A DNA stretch of 36,958 nucleotides from Flavobacteriales bacterium (lineage in GTDB: Bacteria; Bacteroidota; Bacteroidia; Flavobacteriales_F; PHOS-HE28). Each line of letters begins with the position of its first letter. Position 1 is the stretch's first letter. Position numbers and translations under genes: made by a program. Where the stretch lies: contig JAGQVN010000230.1 of assembly GCA_020437905.1 (NCBI GenBank), forward strand, positions 1-36,958, written 5' to 3'. Shown piece by piece: positions 30,023 through 36,958 of the stretch. The notes beneath the pieces were generated by a model. The model saw only the letters and a program-made list of their open reading frames with translations, searched no databases and was not told where the DNA came from.

Positions 30023-30931
30023 TCATGGAACGACCATGTGGGAAAGCCATCGGCTGTCGGCACTCTGCACGACCAGGGTGTAGCTCCCGGACGCGTACCC
30101 CGCGATGGGTAGCGCCGGAAAGGATGGCATGCGGTGTATGCCTACCTGTCGTCCAGCACGATCCAGTACCAGCAGTTCGACAGGGCCTGCCGGTGCATTG
30201 CTTTGTTCGCGTTCACTTTCCGGGAGCGCGGTTGATACGTTGCCGATGACCAGATCGATGATGCCGAGAAGGTCCAGCGCGTGACCGTATATGCGCGCGT
30301 CGTCGATCCATCCGAAATAGGGATAAACTGCCGAAGTGATGTTGAACAAGGTGGCCGGTGATTGAGGATGATAGCCAATGGACCCTGTAGCGGCCTGGGT
30401 AGCGATAAGCGCCCCGTTCATGTAGATCCGCATTTCGCTTCCATCGTACACGCCCGCCACGTGGTACCATGCCCCCGAGAATATGTTGGCAGGCGCACTG
30501 GTCAACACACGCGTGGTCCCTGCCGTCCTCACACGAAAGCGCACGGCAGTATTGTTCACCAGACTGAGCGACCAGATCATGTCGCTGTCGGCTGATCCGA
30601 TGGACTTCGCCATCAGGACACGCTCGGCGGCGCTTACAATGTGGGGACGGACCCAACAGGACAGCGTCAGTTCGTCTCCCGGTGGGGTGGTGATATCGCA
30701 GGGGCCCAGTGCAACATAGGCGTTGTTGCCATTGGCCTGAAGGGCACCTCCATGATGACCTCCGTTCGGGTACCAGATGCAATTGTTGAGGAGTGTACCG
30801 TGGGCTCCCCCCGCGATATCCAAGGCGACGGTGCCCGAAGTGGCGTCCAGTGGCCAATGATGGATCGGTGTCTGGGCAGCGACACCGAATGGGAGGAGCA
30901 GGAGCAGGGTTGGAAGGAAGGGCTTGTTCAT
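30023..30931 (-). CDS. Secreted LamG/concanavalin A-like domain protein
   Basis: 302 residues from the ATG at 30931, with a signal peptide (MNKPFLPTLLLLLPFGVAAQ). Residues ~22-225 are a LamG-like jelly roll: HHWPLDATSGTVALDIAGG, ELTLSCWVRPH, WYHVAGVYDGSEMRIYMNGA and GWIDDARIYGHAL are the usual landmarks. The C-terminal ~70 residues (PVELLVLDRAGRQVGIHRMP...GYASGSYTLVVQS) resemble the second half of a T9SS type A sorting domain but lack the usual PNP strand at its start, so T9SS export is likely but not certain. Probable glycan-binding surface protein. It converges on the M36 gene with 55 bases between stops, and lies 110 bases downstream of the four-gene ligase operon. Confidence 0.82.
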   Translation of the reverse strand: MNKPFLPTLLLLLPFGVAAQTPIHHWPLDATSGTVALDIAGGAHGTLLNNCIWYPNGGHHGGALQANGNNAYVALGPCDITTPPGDELTLSCWVRPHIVSAAERVLMAKSIGSADSDMIWSLSLVNNTAVRFRVRTAGTTRVLTSAPANIFSGAWYHVAGVYDGSEMRIYMNGALIATQAATGSIGYHPQSPATLFNITSAVYPYFGWIDDARIYGHALDLLGIIDLVIGNVSTALPESEREQSNAPAGPVELLVLDRAGRQVGIHRMPSFPALPIAGYASGSYTLVVQSADSRWLSHMVVP

Positions 30932-31040
30932 GGGATCTCCGCTACAATGGACTACGGCCCGGGAGCGGCGGGGTTCGGTTGATCCGACGGAAAGGCTCCA
31001 TGCGCACATGGGGGCATGGCATGGATCGCTGGAATGCCGG

Positions 31041-31730
31041 TCAAGCCTTGCCCGACAGGACCGCCAAGGTCGGCATCAATACGCGCGCCATGCGTTCCGT
31101 CGCGATCGGATCGGCGAGCAGATCGTTCCGGACCTCAAGCTCAATGCCGTGGTAGTTGGGGCCGACCGCTTGACGCAGCGCACGCGTATGTCCATCGCTT
31201 GTGCCCTTGTAGGGAGCATTGCGTCGCACGATCAGGTCCGGGGCGGTGGCCTGGAGAAGCAGTTTCCAACGAGCCGCCAGTTCGCTTTCCCGGCCATGCG
31301 CAGGATCGTACAGGAGGCCTACATGCATATCGCGGACCTGACCATCGAGGATCGGCGTGAAGCTGTGGACAGAGATATGGAGGACCTCCTGACCGCTTCT
31401 GGCCCAGCCGGTCACGGTCCGGAGCACATCCTCGCGGAACGGATCGTAGTAGCGAGCCCGCACCTCATTGCGCTGATGCGCGTCCAACCTCCTGCTCCAT
31501 GCAGAGAACAACCGGGGGTGACGGGCCGATCGGTTCAGCTCCACCAGGAGCCGTGTCACGGTGCAGTGATAGGAAGCATCCGAAATGGGGAGCAGCGCTC
31601 GATACAGGGATAGGGCGCCAGGATCCCATCCGCGATGGCTTTTCAGCTCCCGTTCGGCCGTTGCGAAAACATCTCTGTACGCTTTTGGCACCTGATTCCC
31701 ACCGTGCTCGCAGGTGAGCAGGAGCTTCAT
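31041..31730 (-). CDS. N-formylglutamate amidohydrolase-family protein
   Basis: 229 residues from the ATG at 31730, which overlaps the previous stop by one base (TGATG). Family landmarks: LLLTCEHGGNQVP (E8, H9), SHRGWDPGA (H32, D36), VELNRS, HISVHSFTP (H122) and NAPYKGTSDG, followed by GIELEVRNDL. The fold is a zinc-dependent amidohydrolase related to HutG. There are no histidine-degradation genes around it, so formylglutamate from histidine is an unlikely substrate. As last gene of the operon it may cleave a gamma-glutamyl or N-acyl amide made by the two ligases, either to trim or to recycle the product. Confidence 0.83.
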   Translation of the reverse strand: MKLLLTCEHGGNQVPKAYRDVFATAERELKSHRGWDPGALSLYRALLPISDASYHCTVTRLLVELNRSARHPRLFSAWSRRLDAHQRNEVRARYYDPFREDVLRTVTGWARSGQEVLHISVHSFTPILDGQVRDMHVGLLYDPAHGRESELAARWKLLLQATAPDLIVRRNAPYKGTSDGHTRALRQAVGPNYHGIELEVRNDLLADPIATERMARVLMPTLAVLSGKA

Positions 31731-32956
31731 CAGAACGGCCGGTTGTCTTCCAGGCAACCCGCGAGCTCCTGGTAAACATGGGTCATCACGTGTTGATCCG
31801 GTCGCTCACCGAGCGATCCCATGATCCGTTCGGCCAGGCATCCTCGGGCGGCAAGGATCTTCGCGCAAGAGGTGGCAAGAGGGGAGAGGTCCTCTGCAAG
31901 GGTGGCGAAGATGTGTTCCCAGATCGAACCAGTGCTCGTGGCCGTGTAAAGGCCGAAGGTCTTAAGGAGTTCGGGATGGTCAACAGGGCTGTGCCTTCCG
32001 TTCTGAATGACCTGCTTGAATACGCGGAGCAATTCATGTTCGCTGATCGTGCGATAGGCTTCCGGAGAGCACCATTCCCCTTGGACCAGCCGGCGCAAAG
32101 TGGCTACGATGATCTCGGCGATGCCGAGGTCCATGGCCGGACATTCCTGGATATCGATGACGCGGATCTCGATGGCCCCGCGATCGAAGCGTGCTATGGC
32201 ACCTCGCGAATTCGAAAAGTGCCGCTCCATGACCTTTTCCGTGTCGAACGGGGCCAGGGCGTTCATGATCGGTTTGAAGATCTTCTGCTCGTACGAAGCC
32301 TGGTCGTATACGCGTTCGGGTATCAGCGCCCCCATGAGCACAGGAAGTCGCTCCTGATGATGCAGGTACGCATGCATCCGGGAATCGAACATGCCGGTCA
32401 CTTTTCCGTCCAGGATGGGGGAACTGGCACTGAGCGCGGGGATAAGCGGAAGCAGAATGCGGATCGCGGCATGCAGCTGTCCGAACTCCTCGTCGTTCGC
32501 AAAGGGCAGGTTGAGGTGGGTGCTTTGCAGGTTGCTCCATCCGTGCCCGCGGCAGTCGAAGATCCTGTCGTATAGCGCGTATACCTCGTTGTGTTCGTGC
32601 GGCCAGATGGTGGTCTCGGTGAACGGGTCCATGAATGGATGCGCCGCTGTGGGCAACAACATGGCACCACGCGCCCGGAGCAGTTGGTTGATCGCCCTGA
32701 CCTCCTGATGGAAAAGTTCATTGAACCGCGCAATGTCGGGAGTGGGCTTGGCGGTCTTCAGTTCCACCACGTGCGCCACCAGTTCATTGCTCCACTCCAC
32801 ATCGCCTCGTTCCACGTCACCGGTCATGTGGCCGACCACATCCTTGAACAGGACATCCACGATCGGCAGGATCCGCAGTGAGGACCTGTCCACGACCATA
32901 TACTCCAGTTCGATCCCGGTCACTTCGAACAATCCATATTTCCGCTTCTGGCTCAT
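31730..32956 (-). CDS. GCS2-family carboxylate-amine ligase (glutamate-cysteine ligase-like)
   Basis: 408 residues, ATG start. N-terminal GIELEYMVVD carries the acidic metal/glutamate site (E16, E18). Further landmarks are STHLNLPFANDEEF, LIPALSASSPILDGK, HFSNSRGAIARFDRGAIEIRVIDIQECP and the terminal VMTHVYQELAGCL. This is the glutamine-synthetase-like fold of YbdK/EgtA/GshA-type enzymes that activate a carboxylate with ATP and join it to an amine, often glutamate's gamma-carboxyl. Whether it makes gamma-glutamylcysteine cannot be said; the neighbours suggest a dedicated pathway. Its ATG overlaps the ligase gene upstream by four bases (ATGA). Confidence 0.88.
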   Translation of the reverse strand: MSQKRKYGLFEVTGIELEYMVVDRSSLRILPIVDVLFKDVVGHMTGDVERGDVEWSNELVAHVVELKTAKPTPDIARFNELFHQEVRAINQLLRARGAMLLPTAAHPFMDPFTETTIWPHEHNEVYALYDRIFDCRGHGWSNLQSTHLNLPFANDEEFGQLHAAIRILLPLIPALSASSPILDGKVTGMFDSRMHAYLHHQERLPVLMGALIPERVYDQASYEQKIFKPIMNALAPFDTEKVMERHFSNSRGAIARFDRGAIEIRVIDIQECPAMDLGIAEIIVATLRRLVQGEWCSPEAYRTISEHELLRVFKQVIQNGRHSPVDHPELLKTFGLYTATSTGSIWEHIFATLAEDLSPLATSCAKILAARGCLAERIMGSLGERPDQHVMTHVYQELAGCLEDNRPF

Positions 32957-34422
32957 GGTCGCATGCCGATCTTACGTTCAATGCGGTCCAGCAAGGAACG
33001 GATGATGGCCTCATAGATCCTGTCCCCGAGGACCTTGTCCTCCACACCGTGGTCCACGTTAGGACATTCGTTCACCTCGATCACATAGACCTTTCCGTCC
33101 TTCTCTTTCAGGTCCACCCCAAAAAGTCCTTCGACCCCGATGGCGAAAACCGCCTTCAAGGCACTTTCCACCACCAAGGGTGGCGCTTGTTCGATCGCAA
33201 CGGTCTCGAAATTGCCGGTCTGATCGTCGTGCTTGGAACTGCTCCAGTTGTAGATCTGCCAGTGGCCTCGTGCCATGAAATACTTGCAGGCATATAGCGG
33301 CTTTCCGTCAAGTACTCCAACGCGCCAGTCATAGTCGGTGGGGATGTACTCCTGGGCGATCGCCAGGTCGCTTTCCTCAAGTACCTCGTCCAACCGGGCC
33401 TTGAGTTCTTCCTTGTCGCTAGCCTTCACCACCCCTCGGCTGAAGGTGCTGTCCGGGAGCTTGAGGACCACAGGAAGCCCGAATTTGGAGGCTACCATGT
33501 CCCTGTTCTCACTGTGAACGATCAAGGTGTTAGGCGTGGGAACCCCGGAAGCGGCAAGCACCTCGGCCAGATACACCTTGTTGTTGCATTTGAGAATGGC
33601 TTCCGGGGAGTCCATCACTTCGATGCCCTCGCGCTTGGCCCTGCTCGCGAAGCGGTAGGTGTGGTGGTCCACGTGCGTGTTCTCCCGGATGAACAGGGCA
33701 TCGTACTCCCCGACGCGATCAATATCCTCCGGTCCGATGAGGTCCACAGCGAAACCCATGGAGATCGCCATCTGCTTGAACTTCACGATCGCCCGCTTGT
33801 TGCTTGGAACCGCGGTATCCTCCGGGTTCACCAGGATGGCGAGGTCGTATTTGCTCGTGTCCGCACGCTCCGGGTCGTACCTGCGTCTTCCGAAGTAGGC
33901 TTCTGCGAACACCTCCAGGTCCTCGTGATGTTCATCCGGGATCTCGCTCATCGGGATCGTTCTAAGCGACCGCAGCTCCCATTTATCCGAGCGCATGAAC
34001 CGGGCCCTGAACAATGGGGCTTGGAACACTTTGTTCAGTTCATGGGCAAGCTTGTCGTACCGCTTCTCCACATTCCTGCCGAAATACACGCTCAAGGTGA
34101 ATACGTTCTCCGGCACATCCGCAAGCGCCGATTGCATGACCCCTTCCAGGTCCCGTGACAGCACCTTGACCATGCTCCTGGAGCGCATGTCGAGGATGGC
34201 CTTGGCGTTCGGGATCACCTTGTGTACTCTGGCTTCCGCCAACAAGCTCACGTAATACCCCCGCGATTGGTAGGCGTAGGATCGGGACAAATTGAAGACC
34301 CGGACGTTCCTCAGCTTGCTGAACCGTGGATCGGTGAGGTAATCCCGAGAGGCGACCAACTCCACGCCGGGTACATGGAGGTCCCAGTTCCGGGGCTCGT
34401 TCACAACGATCAGTTTTCTCAT
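32953..34422 (-). CDS. RimK-related ATP-grasp ligase with RLAN-type N-terminal domain
   Basis: 489 residues, ATG start. Residues ~1-190 match the RimK-like N-terminal (RLAN) region: LIVVNEPRNWDLHVPGVELV, VFNLSRSYAYQSRGYYVSLLAEARVHKVIP. Residues ~195-270 are a RimK-type pre-ATP-grasp domain (ALFIRENTHVDHHTYRFA). Residues ~270-480 are ATP-grasp: K321 in VVLKLPDSTFSRGV, IAQEYIPTDYDWRVGVL, D437 in GVDLKEK, and metal ligands E449 and N451 in YVIEVNECPN. Such enzymes make an acyl phosphate and couple it to an amine, commonly adding glutamate-like residues to a peptide or protein. It is coupled by ATGA overlaps to the peptidase gene upstream and the GCS2 gene downstream. Confidence 0.9.
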   Translation of the reverse strand: MRKLIVVNEPRNWDLHVPGVELVASRDYLTDPRFSKLRNVRVFNLSRSYAYQSRGYYVSLLAEARVHKVIPNAKAILDMRSRSMVKVLSRDLEGVMQSALADVPENVFTLSVYFGRNVEKRYDKLAHELNKVFQAPLFRARFMRSDKWELRSLRTIPMSEIPDEHHEDLEVFAEAYFGRRRYDPERADTSKYDLAILVNPEDTAVPSNKRAIVKFKQMAISMGFAVDLIGPEDIDRVGEYDALFIRENTHVDHHTYRFASRAKREGIEVMDSPEAILKCNNKVYLAEVLAASGVPTPNTLIVHSENRDMVASKFGLPVVLKLPDSTFSRGVVKASDKEELKARLDEVLEESDLAIAQEYIPTDYDWRVGVLDGKPLYACKYFMARGHWQIYNWSSSKHDDQTGNFETVAIEQAPPLVVESALKAVFAIGVEGLFGVDLKEKDGKVYVIEVNECPNVDHGVEDKVLGDRIYEAIIRSLLDRIERKIGMRP

Positions 34423-35120
34423 AACGGGTCCTTGGATAGTACGAGCAGGTTCGCGTCGAAGGTCAGAACTCCAAGCAAGATCGCATTGATCACGCGCTGC
34501 ACCCGCTCTTCGTATTTGCGCGCCGGGCTGAACGGATTGTCCTGATACGGATCTGCGATACGGATCCGGTCGCCCTCCATGCCGTAGAGCACCACAAAGT
34601 GCCCGGTCGGTCCTCCACGCAGATCATCTGCGATCAGCTTGTCCTTTTCGTTCGTGTATTCCCTTTCGGTTCCGTACAGGTATGTAGCGCTCAGGCCGGT
34701 GAGGATGGGAAGGTCGCGGCTCAGGTATTCGTGAAGGAGTCGAGCGTCGAGTTCCTCGAAGGCGAAGGTGCCGCCCAGGTCCAGGAATCGCGCATACGCA
34801 GCGCAAGCCACACGCAGTTTGGGGTCGCTCTTGAATTCCAATTGGTTCAGCACCTTATCTCGCAATTCCGATGCATCCAAGGACTTCCATGAAGGATCGA
34901 AGACGAGCAGGTTGTAACTGTGTATCCGTGCTTGAAGTCCGTTCTGCAGGGCATGGATCCCCAGCATCACAGCGAGGGTGCCACCTTCGTCCAGCATATC
35001 AACCTCGCTCAGGATGCGAGGCAGGGGGATCTCCAGACCGAAATGGGAATAAACGGCGTGCAATGCGGTGGGCCCACACGAGCTGTCGTCCGGCTGGGGG
35101 AGGATGCGAAAAGTGCGCAA
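34419..35120 (-). CDS. C39-like papain-fold cysteine peptidase
   Basis: 233 residues from a TTG at 35120; no ATG occurs before the catalytic residues, so a non-ATG start is needed. QPDDSSCGPTALHAVYSHFG carries the oxyanion Gln (Q9) and nucleophile C15, GGPTGHFVVLYG gives H174, and IRIADPYQDNP gives D190, completing the C39/BtrH-like triad. No signal peptide, no membrane part and no ABC domain, so it is not a bacteriocin exporter; a cytoplasmic amide hydrolase or transpeptidase is more likely. The stop overlaps the ligase ATG by four bases. A possible -7 box lies 48 bases upstream, in the 87-base gap after the DUF4340 gene. Confidence 0.85.
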   Translation of the reverse strand: MRTFRILPQPDDSSCGPTALHAVYSHFGLEIPLPRILSEVDMLDEGGTLAVMLGIHALQNGLQARIHSYNLLVFDPSWKSLDASELRDKVLNQLEFKSDPKLRVACAAYARFLDLGGTFAFEELDARLLHEYLSRDLPILTGLSATYLYGTEREYTNEKDKLIADDLRGGPTGHFVVLYGMEGDRIRIADPYQDNPFSPARKYEERVQRVINAILLGVLTFDANLLVLSKDPL

Positions 35121-35207: not shown

Positions 35208-36143
35208 TCACAGAAAAGCCTGTCGCGTTCGGAACATCCTTGGTAGCTCCCGGTACGCGTCAAAGACCATCGGGCGCTCCGGGTAAAGGGAGCTGATCAC
35301 GACATATCCCTTTGGAGTGGGGTGAACGCTTACCGTCACGGGTTCCTTGCCTGAGGCATATTCCACCGTGAGGCTGTGGCTCACCTCGAACCCGCTCACA
35401 TCCGCATCGTCCGCGAACTGGTGCGCCTGTGCACGTACCAGGGAAGGCGTGAACCCGTCGCAGCGGATCGATGAAGCGGGACCATCATCGAGATGCCAGC
35501 CCGCGGTATCCTTCCAAAGCACGAAATCGGTATCGTTCGCGTAATGGAAAGACATACGGATCACATCTTCCGCACGTCCGTTCACCAGCGTCTTGGGCCT
35601 CCATTCCTCCAAGGGCTGGTCGGTCAACATGGAAAGGGTGCTTTCCACTGCGAAAACCTCATTTTCCTTCGGAAGCTTCACATAGGACCACATACCCACC
35701 TCGCCGGGTGAGAAGGTATTCCTGCCCACCTCGATGGCTATCTCCTGACCATCGACCAAATGGAAGAGGATCAGATCCTTGAGGGTATCCGCCAATGCAT
35801 AGCGATCACGCACCAGATCGATGTACCCGACGAAACGCTTGACCTTCATTCGGGCACAGGTGCTCAACACCTCATTGACCCTTTGGACATCCGCGCGGTG
35901 GCGCTGGTCCCCGCTGCTGACGATCCATTGAACGTTGGGGTCGCGTTCGAACGTAAAGGTCGAACCGGCCTGCGAGGCGGATCGGATCGAAAAGGAGGTG
36001 ACAGCAGCAGTGTCCAACCGCATGACAAGGTCCCGATAGGTCCTATCCTTGGTCCGTGGACCCCAGAGGAACGTAATGGCGTAGAGGGTGGCCATCACGG
36101 CTACCGCGATCAACAGGGCCCTCACACTGACCTTATTCCACAT
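35208..36143 (-). CDS. DUF4340 domain-containing membrane-anchored protein
   Basis: 311 residues, ATG start. A single N-terminal membrane helix (~8-27, RALLIAVAVMATLYAITFLW) is followed by an exported domain built of repeated beta-alpha units: SFSIRSASQAGSTFTFERD...VQWIVSS, then ADVQRVNEVLSTCARMK, a pattern repeated in DUF4340. The family typically sits beside GldG-like ABC transporter accessory genes, and here the ATG overlaps the 3' end of such a gene by 11 bases, so the two are one transcriptional and probably functional unit in the envelope. The molecular function is unknown. The C39 gene follows after 87 bases on the same strand. Confidence 0.85.
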   Translation of the reverse strand: MWNKVSVRALLIAVAVMATLYAITFLWGPRTKDRTYRDLVMRLDTAAVTSFSIRSASQAGSTFTFERDPNVQWIVSSGDQRHRADVQRVNEVLSTCARMKVKRFVGYIDLVRDRYALADTLKDLILFHLVDGQEIAIEVGRNTFSPGEVGMWSYVKLPKENEVFAVESTLSMLTDQPLEEWRPKTLVNGRAEDVIRMSFHYANDTDFVLWKDTAGWHLDDGPASSIRCDGFTPSLVRAQAHQFADDADVSGFEVSHSLTVEYASGKEPVTVSVHPTPKGYVVISSLYPERPMVFDAYRELPRMFRTRQAFL

Positions 36144-36958
36144 GACCGGGTCGCATGCGTGCCTTGCGCTGCCTGCGTCGATAGTGTTTTCGCCCTACGC
36201 CAATACCGACCACCAACAAGATCGGCAGCAACAGCTGTGTCCATTTAATGGTCGTACGCTCTGCGTCGGTCAATTCATCGATCGGTCGATAAGTGATGCC
36301 CTTCGAGCGCAATTCAATGAGACCCGTACTATCAGTCACCCAATCGACCGCATTCACGAGCAGGTTCACATTGTCGGGGTTCAATGGTTGCCCCTGGCCT
36401 TGTCGATCCACAGCGAAAGATCCGCTACCCAACACCACCATCCTTGCTCCCGGGCCTCCGCCGAAAGGACCTTCCAAGGCCAGGCCAAGTGCTTGCGGAC
36501 CAAGGTCCAGGTCCTGGTCACGCCATTGTTTCTGAAGGTCCACCAAATGAGGAAGGGACAGGGAATTGCTGCGGTCCGAGGTTCGGAACAAGGGTGCGGC
36601 TGTGAACGAACTGTCCCCCACATAGGCGACCGGGCTTGCGAATTGAAGCACCACGGCCTCCAGACCGGAGGTTATCGGATGTTCGCTCATGTTCGTGACA
36701 AGCGGGAAATAGGGGAAGGCCACAGCCGTCTGAACATTGAACATGCCACGCTGCTGAACGACCTGGACCTGCCCGCACGAGGCATCAACCACGACCTTCT
36801 CAGCGACCTTAACGCCTAAGCCTTCCAACCAGGGAACGATCCCTGTTGATCGAAGCGTAAGTTCCGGGGAGCTTTGCAGGTCGCTTGCTATCGTGGAAAA
36901 GGCGACGACCACCCCCTTACCGGAAGCCATGAAGTCCAGTAGGCGGTCCAATTGTGCA
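36133..36958 (-). CDS. GldG-like ABC transporter auxiliary protein, C-terminal part (5' end outside window)
   Basis: About 275 residues, open to the window edge. Segments LLDFMASGKGVVVAF, VEKVVVDASCGQ-like strands, FPYFPLVTNMSEHPITSGLEAVVLQFASPV and ARMVVLGSGSFA...NVNLLVNAVDWVTDSTGLIELRSKG match the C-terminal half of Gldg/ABC_transp_aux proteins. A last membrane helix (TQLLLPILLVVGIGV) is followed by a basic tail KHYRRRQRKAR. These proteins pair with a GldF-type permease and a GldA-type ATPase, expected just beyond the window. In some Flavobacteriia GldG is needed for gliding, but in many other Bacteroidota the set has no motility role, so the symbol is withheld. Confidence 0.82.
   Translation of the reverse strand, partial: AQLDRLLDFMASGKGVVVAFSTIASDLQSSPELTLRSTGIVPWLEGLGVKVAEKVVVDASCGQVQVVQQRGMFNVQTAVAFPYFPLVTNMSEHPITSGLEAVVLQFASPVAYVGDSSFTAAPLFRTSDRSNSLSLPHLVDLQKQWRDQDLDLGPQALGLALEGPFGGGPGARMVVLGSGSFAVDRQGQGQPLNPDNVNLLVNAVDWVTDSTGLIELRSKGITYRPIDELTDAERTTIKWTQLLLPILLVVGIGVGRKHYRRRQRKARMRPGHVE

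Follow-up and report, generated by a model that had tools for sequence, protein, structure and literature searches.

A recurrent four-gene operon built around RLAN–ATP-grasp and GCS2 ligases in a Flavobacteriales bacterium, a candidate pathway to a capped peptide-like metabolite

Four adjoining genes of a Flavobacteriales bacterium, encoding a C39-like papain-fold protein, an RLAN–ATP-grasp ligase, a GCS2-family carboxylate-amine ligase and an FGase-type amidohydrolase, are a genuine co-inherited module, far beyond what chance would produce. Its two ligases form amide bonds at the expense of ATP, and the other two proteins probably cleave or transfer such bonds. The RLAN and GCS2 ligase pair is the constant core of this module, and FGase and C39 are each dispensable. 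The operon stands an even chance of being a self-contained cytoplasmic pathway to a small peptide-like metabolite, made without ribosomes and probably capped with a γ-glutamyl group.

The operon and its four proteins

The operon lies on the minus strand at 31041–35120 of the window (the whole stretch of DNA that was analysed, 36,958 nucleotides). Its genes overlap end to end in the sequence, as the first-pass annotation had described: the C39/RLAN junction is ATGA (34422/34419), the RLAN/GCS2 junction is again ATGA (32956/32953), and the GCS2/FGase junction is TGATG at 31730. Because the last of these overlaps the GCS2 stop, the FGase start is most likely ATG 31730 (229 aa) rather than the listed TTG 31757; the C39 start at TTG 35120 is uncertain. 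No σ70-like promoter was found near the operon start with a scan model that does not extend to Bacteroidota promoters. In the source genus the operon mostly has gldG/DUF4340 genes on one side and a gene for a LamG-domain protein or a metallopeptidase on the other (35208-36951 and 30023-31009 in the window), and outside the genus the neighbours differ completely from this setting. All four proteins reach their Pfam cut-offs in the profile search.

The C39-like protein (34419–35120; PF03412, E=4.3e-8) is a stand-alone protein of 233 aa with no fused transporter. Residues Q9, C15, H174 and D190 are invariant in 39 of 39 aligned homologues. The nearest folds to its AlphaFold model (pLDDT 93.7) are the ComA and PCAT1 peptidase domains, the isopeptidase PeiR and CtaG, the last a weak match (E ~0.03, TM 0.28–0.37). 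It shares the Cys-His-Asp active site in a C39 fold with the leader peptidases of bacteriocin exporters, but has neither their fused ABC transporter nor a conserved precursor peptide gene beside it. A phytochelatin-synthase-like reading is disfavoured, as that fold is missing from the best 50 PDB matches.

The RLAN–ATP-grasp ligase (32953–34422; 489 aa) scores 150.7 bits against a cut-off of 25 for the RLAN domain (PF14401, E=3e-44), exceeds the cut-offs of the ATP-grasp_3 and RimK models, and carries no GNAT domain by profile search. K321, D437, K439, E449 and N451 of the ATP-grasp part are invariant in 49 of 49 aligned sequences. The nearest folds to its model (pLDDT 90.2) are Ddl, LysX/ArgX and RimK, over the C-terminal 300 residues, and the RLAN part has no fold match among the matches listed. 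The similarity of the ATP-grasp half to LysX/ArgX and RimK holds in both sequence and fold.

The GCS2 ligase (31730–32956; PF04107, E=5.8e-25; 408 aa) has twelve residues invariant in 46 of 46 aligned sequences (E16, E18, N57, E58, H138, N142, Q144, N149, R251, R256, R259 and E263), which fall into the patterns E-x-E, N-E, H..N.Q..N and R..R..R..E. It reaches the cut-off of none of the named GshA/YbdK models, with 31.3 vs 249 bits for TIGR02048 and 51.1 vs 176.4 bits for TIGR02050. Its only solved relative is YbdK, at a marginal E=0.0025; judged by such distances, the characterised relatives are too remote for substrate specificity to be transferred.

The FGase-type amidohydrolase (31041–31730; PF05013, E=2e-25) keeps E17, H18, R76, H131, E206 and E208 in 37 of 37 aligned sequences, and its solved relative is Atu2144 (2odf, E=5.7e-39). 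A link to histidine utilisation of the HutG type was sought, and no hut gene was found in the conserved neighbourhood. Homologues of histidine ammonia-lyase (HutH) are present on other contigs of the genome, so the first-pass statement that no histidine pathway genes are near stands. Loss of key catalytic residues, which that annotation had named as grounds for rejecting its reading, is not what the operon alignments contain: in them these residues are conserved without loss. One locus (L032:5570-9088, genome G179) has an intact C39 gene and RLAN and GCS2 genes each split across frames, by decay of the operon or by sequencing errors; it was left out of the alignments (A2–A6) that include RLAN or GCS2.

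Distribution and composition of the module

In a phylum sample of 297 Bacteroidota genomes, with class A GCS2 called at E<1e-80 and C39 at E<1e-90, RLAN was present in 36 genomes (~12%) and class A GCS2 in 25 (~8%). All 25 GCS2 genes adjoin a class A RLAN ligase gene (Fisher p about 7e-37 for co-occurrence, phylogeny ignored). A matching C39 was present in 22 of these 25 genomes and in none of the other sampled Bacteroidota; the three genomes that lack it all come from one family (f5) and group with Flavobacteriaceae. The search for the same gene order that had been proposed earlier was extended to 84,980 species genomes, and the phylum list obtained from it is a lower bound. The order C39–RLAN–GCS2–FGase recurs in at least about 15 bacterial phyla, many members being MAG bins. 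Among the matches listed these are Bacteroidota, Balneolota, Ignavibacteriota, Fibrobacterota, Uhriibacteriota, Omnitrophota, Thermodesulfobacteriota, Spirochaetota, Tectimicrobiota, Planctomycetota, Pseudomonadota, Myxococcota, Krumholzibacteriota, Sumerlaeota and Hydrogenedentota. Some loci of this multi-phylum set are without one or both hydrolases. Adjacent genes are separated by a median of 1.5, −1 and −4 bases, and the four proteins have correlated distance matrices (Mantel r 0.42–0.69, p=0.001). Many matches to the operon come from marine or soda-lake bacteria.

Core and accessory genes were counted at 110 loci with RLAN, GCS2 and sufficient flank. FGase alone accompanies the pair at 31 loci (mostly Flavobacteriaceae), C39 alone at 19 and neither at 4. 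Flavobacteriaceae operons lack C39, and many other operons lack FGase. The four genes had at first been treated as one set; the recurring order and the constant adjacency of GCS2 to RLAN bear this out, but the full set is present at only 56 of the 110 loci. No further neighbour was found to recur across lineages beside the operon. A conserved small ORF, as for a LysW-like carrier or a RiPP precursor, was sought in 92 operons without success, which sets aside both candidates there, and no small acidic LysW-type carrier gene is conserved in these locus neighbourhoods. A Legionella adelaidensis plasmid (NZ_LR134436) carries three of the genes in the same order, annotated as RimK family, glutamate-cysteine ligase family and N-formylglutamate amidohydrolase; it differs in having no C39 in the record stretch, and the RefSeq names are by family only.

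Two main classes of RLAN protein occur in the Bacteroidota sample. Class A (~490 aa) adjoins GCS2, and class B (~655 aa; L049:7221-9212, L054-L065) has an N-terminal RimI-like GNAT fused to RLAN–ATP-grasp and is without GCS2 and C39 genes. Elsewhere a GNAT–C39 fusion stands beside RLAN (L201:4763-7470 and L203:6068-8689; Azospirillum and genome G155), and in G155 the RLAN and ATP-grasp parts are encoded separately. The RimI-like GNATs of these sister systems are N-terminal protein acetylases by family name. That they stand in for GCS2 points to an exchangeable capping enzyme. A solo RLAN ligase gene (L199:5908-7497), carried by a P. aeruginosa plasmid, adjoins glutamate/aspartate ABC transporter genes, near ggt. 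Fragments of RLAN-type ligases also occur on three putatively viral IMG/VR contigs (L196-L198), and these three matches of the viral-contig scan gave no sign of a mobile system.

Iyer et al. (2009) reportedly described RLAN–ATP-grasp neighbourhoods with a papain-like peptidase and GCS2 and predicted them to make peptides or peptide-like metabolites; the usual RLAN partner there is said to be a GNAT fused to a papain-like domain. The operon type was reportedly anticipated by these authors and by Pfam PF14401. The present operon resembles those systems in uniting an RLAN-fused RimK-like ligase, a papain-like peptidase and GCS2, and differs in its GCS2, FGase and stand-alone C39, the GNAT–papain fusion being that seen in Azospirillum and G155. 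A literature search of incomplete coverage found no paper on this four-gene set. Features that seem to be new are the wide spread and tight linkage of the GCS2 class, the split into core and accessory genes, and the series of decaying orphan GCS2 genes.

Orphan GCS2 genes in the source genus

Among 45 genomes of the source genus, RLAN was found in 30, C39 in the same 30 and GCS2 in 42. Twelve of the 45 have lost C39 and RLAN and kept GCS2 as an open frame (L215:4145-5386, L216:6085-7311, L218:5633-6871, L219:1769-2998, L220:5109-6374, L221:5851-7113, L222:557-1828, L223:1075-2283, L224:4520-6625, L225:4850-6214, L226:5208-6572 and L227:4718-5899); most members of this series are MAGs, and several frame starts are uncertain. 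The orphan gene has mostly kept its position, with the DUF4340 gene on one side and the LamG or metallopeptidase gene on the other. Operon-borne copies keep 40 of 40 checked invariant residues in 21 of 21 congeners, and orphans keep 19 to 39 of the 40. All 12 chosen active-site columns are kept in just one of the 12 orphans. Mean identity over the N-terminal 100 residues falls from 74% in operon copies to 27% in orphans, and over residues 291–370 it is 55% in orphans vs 57% in intact copies. Rough dN/dS values for the middle and C-terminal parts are mostly 0.16–0.30, with one pair at 0.47 and synonymous sites near saturation. The GCS2 tree cannot be explained with fewer than two losses, nor the neighbour-gene tree with fewer than three changes; branches are long and the tree order is unsure. 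The orphan of G320 is intact and that of G322 carries E18D, and these two look like early stages of decay.

Because the active site decays in most congeners without RLAN, GCS2 catalysis appears to be tied to the presence of the RLAN and C39 partners. The retention of the active site beside RLAN fits a GCS2 product that is a mere intermediate for the RLAN ligase. In the source genus GCS2 also seems to have a second, non-catalytic use, as an apparent pseudo-ligase.

Proposed pathway and competing explanations

In the proposed pathway GCS2 would activate a side-chain carboxylate, by its family most likely the γ-carboxylate of Glu, and join it to an amine X to give γ-Glu-X. The RLAN–ATP-grasp ligase would then activate a carboxylate of this intermediate and add a second amino compound, in parallel with GshB acting after GshA; Glu is a likely choice, because RimK-type relatives use Glu. 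The C39-like cysteine enzyme and the FGase metallo-amidohydrolase would edit, transfer or recycle the product, and since both are optional they probably do not form the core bonds. The first-pass reading was that the ligases build a molecule and the hydrolases trim or recycle it. The invariant ligase core and the optional hydrolases are as it predicted, but C39 may act as a peptidyl transferase instead of a trimming peptidase. One precedent is the pairing of the ATP-grasp enzyme CtaD with the peptidyl transferase CtaG in closthioamide synthesis (PMC6772006). Another is the NAGGN operon (asnO–ngg–peptidase; PMC8070244), where a ligase of the ATP-grasp type works with a capping enzyme and a peptidase to yield a capped dipeptide; its Ngg is a GNAT–ATP-grasp fusion, like the class B RLAN proteins. 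In the present operon, by contrast, GCS2 would cap instead of a GNAT, there is no asparagine-synthase (AsnO) gene, and the peptidases are C39 and FGase.

Two observations count against a metabolite as the product: sister RLAN ligases pair with RimI-like GNATs, and RimK acts on a protein, which might therefore be the kind of acceptor here as well. It is rather unlikely, in our estimate, that the operon serves protein modification, with the RLAN ligase adding a GCS2-made or capped residue to a target such as a ribosomal protein and C39 and FGase removing it, in the manner of RimK and RimB. To our knowledge, all characterised GCS2 enzymes act on small molecules, save the Pup-ligase branch of the wider superfamily, and this speaks against such a role, as does the lack of any conserved neighbour, large or small (the latter in 92 operons), that could be target or carrier. 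The ligase does belong to the same ATP-grasp branch as RimK, the enzyme that glutamylates RpsF, and the LysW-loading enzymes LysX/ArgX; it differs from both in its RLAN domain, its GCS2 partner and the absence of a carrier or ribosomal target gene nearby. The GNAT partners of the sister systems also favour protein modification, C39 and PeiR-like folds cut isopeptide or leader-peptide bonds, and RimB is an antagonist of RimK (PMC12239564). An assembly line free of NRPS, in which C39 is a CtaG-like peptidyl transferase that joins ligase-activated units, is quite unlikely. CtaG structures are among the fold matches, CtaG works with the ATP-grasp enzyme CtaD in the closthioamide precedent (PMC6772006), and C39 and RLAN are present or absent together in the genus (30 of 30 genomes); the nearest folds, however, are true C39 peptidases, the CtaG match is the weak one given above, the operon encodes no carrier protein, and Flavobacteriaceae operons do wholly without C39.

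The sequence of a GCS2 and an ATP-grasp ligase, forming two ATP-dependent amide bonds, is also the enzyme logic of GshA and GshB in glutathione synthesis, from which the operon differs in ligases that miss the GshA and GshB models, in the extra RLAN domain and in its two hydrolases. A glutathione role is unlikely because the genome has a single GSH-S_ATP (PF02955) match, RimK (NF007764, 350 bits vs a cut-off of 331). No GshB was recognised in the genome or the operon, in keeping with the earlier remark that no glutathione pathway genes are near; with the GCS2 scores far below the GshA cut-offs, the glutathione reading is disfavoured. The same model scores bear on the possibility, raised at the outset, that GCS2 is a plain glutamate–cysteine ligase, for which the cut-offs are not reached. 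Synthesis of a γ-Glu-Cys-type thiol, in bacteria without glutathione, would suit the missing GshB, but is very unlikely in view of these scores, of the place of phytochelatin synthase outside the best 50 PDB matches of C39, and of the lack of a thiol-metabolism gene conserved beside the operon. That GCS2 serves the ATP-grasp ligase in a regulatory or structural capacity, its own ligase chemistry being secondary, is extremely unlikely: congeners without RLAN do keep the frame and region 291–370 as the active site decays, but that site is fully conserved in all 21 operon-bearing congeners and across phyla.

The preferred reading, a pathway to a capped peptide-like metabolite, can be widened tentatively, and with more doubt than confidence, to a widespread class of capped-peptide metabolites, in which an RLAN ligase works with interchangeable caps, γ-glutamyl from GCS2 or acetyl from a RimI-like GNAT, together with a non-catalytic GCS2 that survives pathway loss in the source genus. 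The congeners with a full operon, a nearly intact orphan GCS2 or an apparently dead one make the pathway reading testable. If it is true, a conserved four-enzyme pathway in many environmental bacteria would lead to a compound class that is on no metabolic map yet, and the interchangeability of GCS2 and GNAT as partners of a single ligase family would be a simple rule for predicting products.
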